Source: Chloroflexota bacterium (GTDB lineage Bacteria; Chloroflexota; Dehalococcoidia; Dehalococcoidales; UBA2162). From it: a stretch of 38,940 bases of DNA. The stretch is taken from NCBI GenBank assembly GCA_016199495.1, contig JACQGQ010000016.1:1-38940 (forward strand). Reading direction: 5' to 3'. The notes beneath the pieces are model-generated. The model searched no databases, was not told the origin of the DNA, and saw nothing but the letters and a program-made list of their open reading frames with translations. Below, piece after piece: positions 6,083 through 36,222 of the stretch. How positions within the stretch are numbered: the stretch's first letter is position 1; every line of letters begins with the position of its first letter. The translations under genes and the position numbers were made by a program.

Positions 6083-6715
6083 TTACTTACCGGATGGTTG
6101 CGGTCTCTTTATCTCCTGGATATTTCGCCTTCGCTCGGCTAAAGTGCGTACTTCGGTGAAGACAGAGAGGCTTTCCTCGGGTGCTGGCGGCGACATCTTC
6201 AGAAAGATGGCCTGTCTTTCCGGGAAAACCAGGGTGGGGGTGCCAAAAACACCCAGGGTCTCCACGGCAAAGGTATGGTCCTCAGCCAGCTTAGCCAGTA
6301 TCCGGCGGTCGCTGATATCCCTTTGAAATCGAACCATCTCCAGGCCGGCACTCTCAGCTACTTCACTAAGGGTGTTTGTATCAGCGATATCCCGGCGCTG
6401 TTCGTGCCTGGCTCTAATTAAGGCGATATGAAAACGCTCAAAGGCAGCTTCACCCTGACGTCGGGCAGCCTCGGCGGCACGGAAGGCACGCAATCCGCGA
6501 CTGGGGTAGCCTTCCGGTTGTTCCCAGATTTTCCATTGCGCACCCTGCTGACTGTTAACCTGCTCCAGGCTGAAATACCTCCAGTTGATGGTTAGCTTGG
6601 TGCCGATGTCCTCTTGCACTCTTTGCAGCCAAACTGCTGCATTGTAGACATAGGGTCAAAGATAATCGAAGTAGATGTCCAGGGATATGGTAGCACTCAT
6701 TTCGCTCTTGACCAT
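6083..6715 (-). CDS. Candidate selenoprotein: DsbA/FrnE-like thioredoxin-fold protein with in-frame UGA at residue 20
   Basis: AAGGAGG-CTAAG-ATG start at 6715; MVKSEMSATISLDIYFDYL(U)PYVYNAAVWLQRVQEDIGTKLTINWRYFSLEQVN...VFGTPTLVF (cis-Pro loop). TGA at 6658-6656 occupies the CPxxY catalytic Cys position; the track starts only after it (6619). Confidence 0.75.
6624..6641 (-). promoter_or_regulatory. Bacterial SECIS-like hairpin
   Basis: Minus strand TGCAGC-AGTTTG-GCTGCA, perfect 6 bp stem, GU in the apical loop; loop G is 22 nt after the UGA. Confidence 0.6.
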
Positions 6716-6763
6716 CTTAGCCTCCTTATAGTACGGGTGAACTCTTTGTTCAGGCTGAATTAG

Positions 6764-33266: not shown

Positions 33267-34352
33267 TCAATCACTTTTCCTCTTAATCACATGCACGCCG
33301 GTCGCTTTAAAGATAGCGTAAACTTCCCTGGTCGCCGCTAAATTCAACTCCTCAGTTGACCTTTTAGTGATGAGAGCCACCAGGGGGAAGCCACAGTCCA
33401 TCTCGATACGGCTGAGTTGTCCCCTTGATACTACCCTGGTTATTTTGGCAGAGAACGAGTTTCGGGCACTGCTTGAGATTCGGGACAAGGCTAGTGTGAC
33501 ATCTTCCGGGCGAATACAAGCGTAAACTTTTTCCCCGACGGCGTAATCTGAAATCGCTGCGATGACGTTATCACCAATATCTATCGTAACTACCTTATCA
33601 TCATTCGATGCTATCACCCCGTCGATAATATTTTCGACGCCAACGAAATCGGCGACCTCTCTACTTCCGGGAGCAGTGAATATATCTTGAAAACCTCCCG
33701 TTTGCCGGATTTCACCATCGAGGAGCACGCCCACTCTATCAGCCAGCCGTTGCCCCTGGGACATATCGTGGGTAGCCATGATAATGGTAGTGTCATCACG
33801 GCGGATAATATCTGTTATCAATTGCTCGATTTTTGCTGTCGAAACCGGGTCGAGGTTAGCGGTGGGTTCATCCAGTAGCAATACATCAGGTTCACTGACG
33901 ATGGCTCTGGCGATGGCCACCCTCTGCACTTCTCCCCCCGATAGAGTACGGGCGTTTCTGTTTTGATAGGTTGAGAGACCAACCATTTCTAGAATTCGGC
34001 CAACTTTTTGGCGAATGCTTCCTTTATCAACTCTTCTCAATTTCAGACCATAGGCGATATTATCATAGACACTCATATTAAACACTACCGGCTTCTGCAG
34101 TACGAACGCCATCCTTCTCCGCGCTTCTAATTTCCTTTTTCCCGATTCGAAAACATCGCTACCGTCAAAATATATTTTCCCCGAGGTAGGCAGGTCAAGA
34201 AGGTCAATCAGTCGAAGGAGGGTCGTTTTACCGGCGCCGGTCGGACCAATCAGAGCAAAGACTTCCCCCCGGTCAACCTTCAGGCTGACATTTTTCAGGA
34301 TGTCTCGCCCATCAGAGTTTTGGCATAAATTCACCGTTTCGATTAAAGGCAT
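33267..34352 (-). CDS. tupC: Tungstate/molybdate-type ABC transporter ATP-binding protein with C-terminal TOBE-like domain
   Basis: LIGPTGAGKTTLLRLIDLLD, LSGGEVQRVAIARAIVSEPDVLLLDEPTANLDP. Confidence 0.9.
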   Translation of the reverse strand: MPLIETVNLCQNSDGRDILKNVSLKVDRGEVFALIGPTGAGKTTLLRLIDLLDLPTSGKIYFDGSDVFESGKRKLEARRRMAFVLQKPVVFNMSVYDNIAYGLKLRRVDKGSIRQKVGRILEMVGLSTYQNRNARTLSGGEVQRVAIARAIVSEPDVLLLDEPTANLDPVSTAKIEQLITDIIRRDDTTIIMATHDMSQGQRLADRVGVLLDGEIRQTGGFQDIFTAPGSREVADFVGVENIIDGVIASNDDKVVTIDIGDNVIAAISDYAVGEKVYACIRPEDVTLALSRISSSARNSFSAKITRVVSRGQLSRIEMDCGFPLVALITKRSTEELNLAATREVYAIFKATGVHVIKRKSD

Positions 34353-34354
34353 TG

Positions 34355-35041
34355 TTACCTCGGCTGCAGCCTGTTTAAGAGTATATTGACGATAAGGGCA
34401 ATAAATATAAGGATTATCCCCAGTGCCAGTGATAGCTCCAGGTCACCTTTGGCTGTCTCCAGTGATATTGCCGTGGTGATGACCCGGGTAAAACCCCTGA
34501 TATTGCCACCAACGATAAGAGCTATTCCCACCTCGGAGATTGCCCGCCCGAATCCCATGATAACTGTCGCCATAACGGCGAACCTGGCTTCCCTGAGAAC
34601 GATAATTGTCATCTGAAAGCCGCTGGCACCGAGTGAACGAGCCGTATCCGGTATCACCTTATCCACTCCACTGAGAGCCGCAATGGTCAGACCAAGAAGT
34701 AACGGCGTGATTAGTATCATTTGCCCCAGCACCATAACCGCGGGAGTAAAAAGTAGATTAAGTCCACCCAGCGGTCCAGCCCGGGAAAAGAGGATGAAAA
34801 CAAACAGACCGATGGCGACCGTAGGTATACCGAAAAATGTCTGAATTAGACTTATCACCAGCCTTTTGCCCGGGAACTGCTTAAAGTGGATGAGGCTACC
34901 CAGCGGCAGGCAAATCAGAGAGGTGAGGAGAGTGGAGGTTAGCGAAATCATCAGCGACCGCCCGGCTATCTCCGTTACCTCCGGGTCAAGAGAGATTATC
35001 AGCCCTATTGCTTTAGTCAGGCCGTGCCATATCTCAGTCAA
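34355..35041 (-). CDS. tupB: Tungstate-type ABC transporter permease
   Basis: Multi-TM permease, ARSLGASGFQMTIIVLREARFAVMATVIMGFGRAISEVGIALIVGGNI. Confidence 0.9.
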   Translation of the reverse strand: MTEIWHGLTKAIGLIISLDPEVTEIAGRSLMISLTSTLLTSLICLPLGSLIHFKQFPGKRLVISLIQTFFGIPTVAIGLFVFILFSRAGPLGGLNLLFTPAVMVLGQMILITPLLLGLTIAALSGVDKVIPDTARSLGASGFQMTIIVLREARFAVMATVIMGFGRAISEVGIALIVGGNIRGFTRVITTAISLETAKGDLELSLALGIILIFIALIVNILLNRLQPR

Positions 35042-35102
35042 TTAACTTCAGCCCTGTCGACAAAATTCTTTTTCATGGTAGCCGGCGGTCGCAATGCTGA
35101 CT

Positions 35103-35984
35103 CTACTCGGGTTCTGAGCCGACGTAAGGAGTGAATAGCTGCGTTCCGTACTCCTCAATACCGTAATTGCCGATAAACTCTTGTATCTCGGGTGAGATAA
35201 GGAATTCTATCAGGTTGTTAGCCATATCGATTTTAGCTTGAGGCATCTTCTCCGGGTTTAGGGCAATGGCGGAGTAAACATTGAGCAGCAGACTACCCTT
35301 ATCGACCACCGGCACCAGTGCCAGCTTACCCTTATAAGTAAGATAAGTGCCTATATCGGTCAGTGTATAGGCTTGTTTTTCGCTGGCCATCATCAGTGTC
35401 GGCCCCATGCCGGTGCCGGCCTCAATATACCACCGGCCGGCATTTCTGACCGCTTCATAATCATAGCCGGCTTCTGCCCAGATATCTTTCTCCTTGGCGT
35501 GCGTCCCGGAGTCGTCTCCTCGGGAAACAAAGCTCGCCTTGCCCGTCTCCATCAGCTTTTTGAAGGCGGCCTCAGGCGTCAACCCTTTGATACCGGCCGG
35601 GTCAACTGACGGCCCCACGATGAGGAAATAGTTATAGGCGAAGGGGACCCGCCGCACGCCGTAGCCATCGGCGATAAATTGCTCCTCACGGATTTGGTCA
35701 TGGATGGTAACAATGTCCACGTCACCCCTCCGGCCGTATTCCAGGGCTTTGCCGCTGCCGGCATACATGATATCCAGCTCGACATTATATTTTCTCTCAA
35801 ACATAGGTTCTAGGTAGCCCCAGAGACCGCTATCATACAGGCTGGTGGTGGTGGCTACCCTCAACCTCAACTGTGGCGGTAGTGGTGATGATGATTCGGC
35901 TCTGGGTGAACTACAGCCGCTAGTAGCCAGCAATAGACTCATCAGGATAAATATGCCTGACAAGCAAACGGCCGTTTTTTTCAA
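35103..35984 (-). CDS. tupA: Tungstate-binding lipoprotein of ABC transporter
   Basis: TTG start at 35984 after GAGGTG: MKKTAVCLSGIFILMSLLLATSGCSS (lipobox); RLRVATTTSLYDSGLWGYLEPMFERKYNVELD, SRGDDSGTHAKEKDIW. Track start at 36101 overlaps the leader terminator. Confidence 0.92.
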   Translation of the reverse strand: MKKTAVCLSGIFILMSLLLATSGCSSPRAESSSPLPPQLRLRVATTTSLYDSGLWGYLEPMFERKYNVELDIMYAGSGKALEYGRRGDVDIVTIHDQIREEQFIADGYGVRRVPFAYNYFLIVGPSVDPAGIKGLTPEAAFKKLMETGKASFVSRGDDSGTHAKEKDIWAEAGYDYEAVRNAGRWYIEAGTGMGPTLMMASEKQAYTLTDIGTYLTYKGKLALVPVVDKGSLLLNVYSAIALNPEKMPQAKIDMANNLIEFLISPEIQEFIGNYGIEEYGTQLFTPYVGSEPE

Positions 35985-36025
35985 TACTGGCACCTCTTCA
36001 GTCAGAAAGAAAACCACCGACAAAC

Positions 36026-36182
36026 GAAAAATGCCTCCGCAAGGAGGCACTTGGGTCAAAGGGCACAAACTACCCTTCAGGGTTGCCTCCTTTCCAAACA
36101 CGGGTGGCGTGAGCGTTTCCCCTCACACCTTACTGGTTACCGCCCATAGGTAAGATACCCTTAGCAACAGTAACTCGGAGGA
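36026..36182 (-). promoter_or_regulatory. Attenuator/riboswitch-like leader of tup operon (possible Moco/Tuco-type)
   Basis: Minus: terminator TGCCTCC-TTGC-GGAGGCA-TTTTT (36026-36049) and upstream AAGGAGGCA (36084-36092) that can pair with TGCCTCCTT to form an antiterminator. Confidence 0.65.
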
Positions 36183-36222
36183 CCATATTCAATTCACTAA
36201 GGTCTTTTCAGCACCTTAATCA

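Follow-up and report, generated by a model that had tools for sequence, protein, structure and literature searches.

A gene on the minus strand of a Chloroflexota genome (GenBank assembly GCA_016199495.1) appears to encode a DsbA-fold selenoprotein in which the catalytic position is specified by UGA. We infer that in vivo this codon (6658-6656) is almost certainly decoded as selenocysteine (Sec). The same proposal had been made in an initial annotation of the DNA, and it is now supported by the Sec machinery of the genome, by Sec/Cys exchange among homologs, and by a conserved hairpin. That Sec20 is inserted and also has a redox role, whatever its substrate, is very probable. Judged from its sequence, the protein is a member of a separate DsbA branch that has one chalcogen (U/C-P-x-V/A) and no resolving Cys. 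Coordinates in Table 1 and below refer to the window, meaning the whole 38,940-nucleotide stretch analyzed.

Table 1. Features of the predicted selenoprotein gene, in window coordinates
Feature	Position	Strand	Details
Selenoprotein gene read through TGA	6083..6715	-	210 aa; DsbA-like thioredoxin fold, PF01323
Shine-Dalgarno sequence AAGGAGG	6721..6727	-	5 nt (CTAAG) ahead of ATG 6715
In-frame TGA, predicted Sec20	6656..6658	-	Codon 20; N-terminal chalcogen of the U-P-Y-V active-site motif
Candidate bacterial SECIS hairpin TGCAGC-AGTTTG-GCTGCA	6624..6641	-	Stem TGCAGC/GCTGCA, loop AGTTTG, G at 6634
cis-Pro loop F157-G-T-P-T161 (FGTPT)	6233..6247	-	F157, G158, P160, and T161 invariant in a 28-sequence alignment
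E201-I-K203 near the C terminus	6107..6115	-	E201 and K203 unchanged across the same 28 sequences

An open frame interrupted by a single UGA

From the ATG at 6715, the reading frame is open to a TAA at 6085-6083, and the TGA is its only interruption. Mechanical ORF calling starts the gene at a GTG at 6619, yielding a product of 178 aa that lacks both beta-1 and the active site; no Shine-Dalgarno sequence precedes this GTG (the preceding sequence is GCAGCAGTTTGGCTGCAAAGA). The initial annotation had set the ATG, with AAGGAGG at 5 nt, against the ORF start at 6619, and all of its coordinates proved to be correct. The cis-Pro loop and the Cys-free remainder that it described were both present when the frame was read: the read-through protein has no Cys codons, which leaves residue 20 as the sole chalcogen besides Met.

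Homologs exchange Sec for Cys at a single position

About 40 homologs were found in 393 genomes of the class (34 to 73% identity), and almost every one has a single TGA. The protein is conserved both before and after the TGA, and the conserved part includes beta-1 upstream of it. At 63 loci, a set that includes the window and in which two members (L022 and L051) apparently represent one contig, the aligned codon was TGA in 46, Cys in 17, and nothing else, which bears out the earlier placement of the UGA at the catalytic first Cys. Besides the residues given in Table 1, D17, U/C20, P21, L50, and A84 are invariant in the 28-sequence alignment.

In a tree of 59 proteins, a UPxV/CPxV branch that holds the window protein is set apart from a UPWCY/CPWCY branch of FrnE/Rv2466c-like proteins, its sister clade. 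Counted over both branches, at least 7 Sec-Cys changes fall on well-supported forks. The closest Cys homolog, L052 (Dehalococcoidales), is 69% identical and clusters with the window protein and two further Sec forms (support 96/82), in an internal order that is not settled. L052 has no hairpin of bacterial SECIS (bSECIS) geometry, and its genome has neither a SelA match nor a strong tRNA-Sec. Within the sister clade, FrnE-like members combining Sec with a resolving Cys (UPWCY or UPYCY; L074-L077 and L079) also have an in-frame TGA, and Cys versions (CPWCY) occur at L053, L054, L056, and L084-L087.

Sampling of the phylum gave a match at E <= 1e-20 in 87 of 399 genomes. Among hand-picked loci, Sec forms outside the class were found at L096, L098, L100, L113, L114, and L115, and the remaining loci with a readable site have Cys, for the most part within CPxV, CPxA, or similar motifs. 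We also observed a Sec-type homolog in a Chloroflexia bacterium (L055) that reads FDYR*PYV, with the stop at the Sec position and an apparent frameshift afterwards.

Comparative evidence for a SECIS hairpin

Published limits for bSECIS elements are a loop of 3 to 9 nt, a stem of 4 to 16 bp, a spacing of 16 to 37 nt, a G among the first two loop positions, and a minimum free energy of <= -7.5 (PMC13188914). The perfect 6-bp hairpin proposed earlier was recovered exactly, starting at the 15th nt past the UGA with the loop G as the 22nd, and it lies inside these limits (loop of 6 nt, 6 bp, G second, spacing of 20 nt), with a folding energy of -8.6 kcal/mol by itself; the 42-nt region folds at -10.3 kcal/mol. 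Taken singly, the hairpin does not stand out, either from dinucleotide shuffles (z = -1.04) or from synonymous recodings (p = 0.14), because the peptide AAVWL itself favors pairing. The bSECIS geometry is by itself not specific either, since 8 of 10 single-Cys rows have a fitting hairpin, as do all 41 Sec rows of the single-chalcogen form.

The significance of the hairpin comes from comparison across homologs. Hairpins are stronger in Sec forms than in Cys forms (mean z, 1.53 [n = 46] versus 0.45 [n = 17]; Mann-Whitney p = 0.001), and in one fixed register Sec forms make 4.33 of 6 pairs, versus 2.5 of 6 for Cys forms. The clearest signal comes from a wobble base. Where residues 26 and 27 are both Ala, 19 of 21 Sec forms use GCA as the first of the two codons (2.3 expected), as do 2 of 6 Cys forms (0.9 expected), with expectations drawn from codon use in the same genes and kinship among the proteins ignored. 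The wobble base in the hairpin stem thus looks selected; these proteins are mostly only 40 to 50% identical, so that unselected wobble sites should be saturated. A tree-aware test of Sec form against wobble base had too little power. In a UPWVR subgroup, the apical loop of the preferred fold lacks G as its first base, and an Rfam scan of the UGA region returned nothing relevant.

Selenocysteine machinery

The genome assembly (1.38 Mb, 91 contigs, 80.8% complete) contains all four genes, selA, selB, selC, and selD, for which the initial annotation had proposed a search. The tRNA-Sec scores 72.4 bits and has the anticodon TCA, and SelB (346.5 bits), SelA (448.7 bits), and SelD (385.5 bits) are encoded on one contig. 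The selD gene also carries an in-frame TGA (RAAGUASKLG; G000:C75:3832-4755; L017 1501-2424), making SelD another selenoprotein of this genome.

For the single-chalcogen form, 39 of 40 Sec genomes had SelA, versus 5 of 10 Cys genomes (Fisher p = 0.0006), in a tally made by hand from tables that scores matches at E ~1e-8 as absent and ignores relatedness. In the sole Sec genome without SelA, G029 (71% complete), a strong tRNA-Sec was found at 75.5 bits. Where a Cys genome lacked SelA (five cases), the tRNA-Sec search score was <=52.8 bits, close to that of a tRNA-Ser in the window's own genome (51.1 bits). Tree-aware pairing of Sec form with SelA yielded 6 pairs only, too few to reach significance. 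Several Cys forms sit in SelA-bearing genomes, so loss of SelA is not necessary for the exchange of Sec and Cys.

Other readings of the UGA

The TGA could have arisen as an error of sequencing or assembly, or the gene could be decaying through a nonsense mutation, with translation restarting at 6619. The assembly is a draft of metagenome type, and the ORF without its N terminus is open from the GTG, as this explanation would have it. However, 45 other rows, drawn from many genera, have TGA at this codon, and its recurrence in independent assemblies makes sequencing error very unlikely. The strong Shine-Dalgarno sequence lies ahead of the ATG rather than the GTG, the conserved beta-1 before the TGA belongs to the predicted fold, and the Sec machinery is at hand; taken as a whole, error or decay is highly improbable. 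UGA is the leakiest stop codon in many bacteria, and it might also be read by a route that does not involve Sec, either near-cognate suppression or a code in which TGA means Trp. Against this, TGA is an ordinary stop in 7 of the 32 window genes sampled and Trp is TGG, so the genetic code is standard and TGA is not generally reassigned; homologs without TGA always have Cys at residue 20 and never Trp. We consider the chance of such a route negligible and retain decoding as Sec.

Fold and family placement

Read through the TGA, the product scores 61.2 bits against PF01323 (DSBA), for which the cutoff is 25.6. An AlphaFold2 model built from a six-sequence alignment (pLDDT 78, pTM 0.74) places beta-1 at residues 10 to 15 and residue 20 immediately ahead of a helix at 21 to 40. 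The top fold matches in the PDB are the native and C24S structures of DR2335 of Deinococcus radiodurans, with TM-scores of only ~0.6, and DR2335 also ranks first by profile (2.1e-28). DR2335 (PDB 7dk9 and 7dka) resembles the window protein in its DsbA fold, in its lone conserved Cys (C24, in CPYA), which lies where Sec20 does, and in a C-terminal RRP motif, but it has Cys for Sec and is only ~30% identical. The published description gives it one conserved Cys and reports no functional data (PMC8945050).

The initial annotation had labeled the protein DsbA/FrnE/HCCA-like, and of this label the DsbA fold stands. FrnE and the DsbA-Mrx1-type proteins Rv2466c and NCgl2478 have the same fold with the nucleophile at the same position, but they carry CPW/FC with a resolving Cys where the window protein has UPYV. 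We reject an identity as FrnE proper, which requires CXXC; FrnE is a much better match to the sister clade (A2), at 2.9e-27 versus 7e-10. HCCA isomerase and GST kappa have Ser at the active-site position, and all 63 loci have Sec or Cys there; these families are more distant fold relatives only. The Rv2466c-like nitroreductase model (PF22234), which has CPWC instead of UPYV, scores 26.1 bits, under the Pfam cutoff of 27, and the Rcas_1661 (seleno)lipoprotein model (NF041057) scores 21.8 bits, far under the NCBIfam cutoff of 190. A periplasmic DsbA was also rejected, as the protein has UPYV in place of the CxxC oxidase motif and no evident export signal. Its N terminus runs directly into beta-1 (residue 10 of the predicted structure), so export is unlikely and the product is probably cytoplasmic. 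TsoY, whose motif is also UxxV (PMC13188914), gave no match to the window protein (NF047643), and no NCBIfam model covering the protein was found.

By its motifs, the window gene is a further member of a widespread kind already known from marine selenoprotein surveys, fitting both UxxV and DxxUP. The 2008 GOS selenoproteome (PMC2398784, Table 2) lists, without a function, a family "DsbA 3" from marine samples (PF01323, UxxV, 5 selenoproteins, and 72 Cys homologs), which we liken to the window protein by family and motif alone: PF01323, Sec-x-x-Val, and Cys homologs occur in both. A 2026 review (PMC13188914, citing PMC5029168) lists a "DsbA-like protein form 2" with PF01323 and a DxxUP motif, likened here by description alone (the window protein reads DYLUP); that entry is labeled a crotonase/enoyl-CoA hydratase family protein, with MDP6049977.1 as the example. 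DsbA-like selenoproteins were among the top families in a 2016 census (PMC5029168).

A possible mono-selenol reductase

We postulate that SelB and tRNA-Sec decode the UGA with the aid of the hairpin at 6641-6624, placing Sec20 just ahead of helix 1, where by homology it would face the cis-Pro loop. Sec20 would attack a mixed disulfide or an oxidized adduct to form a Se-S adduct, from which thioredoxin or a low-molecular-weight external thiol would free Sec20; without a resolving Cys in the protein, Sec20 would have to be regenerated by an outside thiol. A precedent is the two-Cys DsbA-Mrx1 protein NCgl2478, which reduces mixed disulfides preferably by a monothiol mechanism through its N-terminal Cys and needs both Cys residues to reduce protein disulfides (PMC8280269). 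Together with the absence of a resolving Cys, this precedent leads us to expect a mono-selenol reductase acting on mixed disulfides or small oxidized adducts, an assignment by analogy to which we give slightly less than an even chance.

The Sec-containing product could also have another chemistry, as a peroxidase, as a binder of metals or metalloids, or as a GST kappa/HCCA-type transferase or isomerase, rather than as a disulfide reductase. Peroxidases occur among other single-Sec proteins, the fold is common to GST kappa and HCCA isomerase, and the missing resolving Cys fits such roles as well. The Ser expected of HCCA isomerase or GST kappa is found in none of the aligned homologs, and the closest characterized proteins, of the DsbA-Mrx1 type, are thiol-dependent disulfide reductases (PMC8280269). 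We regard peroxidase or other selenol chemistry as the main alternative and a serious possibility, if one that falls short of even.

The gene neighborhood gave no pointer to the substrate of the proposed reductase. None of the window neighbors (MFS, PhoU, and PiT) recurred in a search of 69 homologous loci, the majority of them with short flanks only. In ~19 other loci of the class (L025-L050), an RNase III-like gene follows the selenoprotein gene, in some cases with ftsY; the window lacks this arrangement, and the RNase III-like neighbor is a housekeeping gene that offers no functional hint. Elsewhere in the window, we observed a Moco (molybdenum/tungsten cofactor) riboswitch (36072-36192, minus strand, 62.3 bits) just upstream of genes resembling a tungstate/molybdate ABC transporter (33267-36101).

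Implications

Mechanical reading of this gene yields a 178-aa protein minus its active site, and the same is expected in many related genomes. L052 is a natural experiment, a Cys form amid Sec forms with no SECIS-like hairpin and an assembly without a SelA match. We tentatively suggest that the single-chalcogen UPxV/CPxV branch could be a biochemically undescribed class of mono-selenol oxidoreductases, in which Chloroflexota may repeatedly have swapped one of Sec and Cys for the other, in some cases losing the Sec machinery as well. Its proteins combine the DsbA fold and a single chalcogen with no partner to resolve it, and DR2335 provides a Cys homolog whose structure is already solved.
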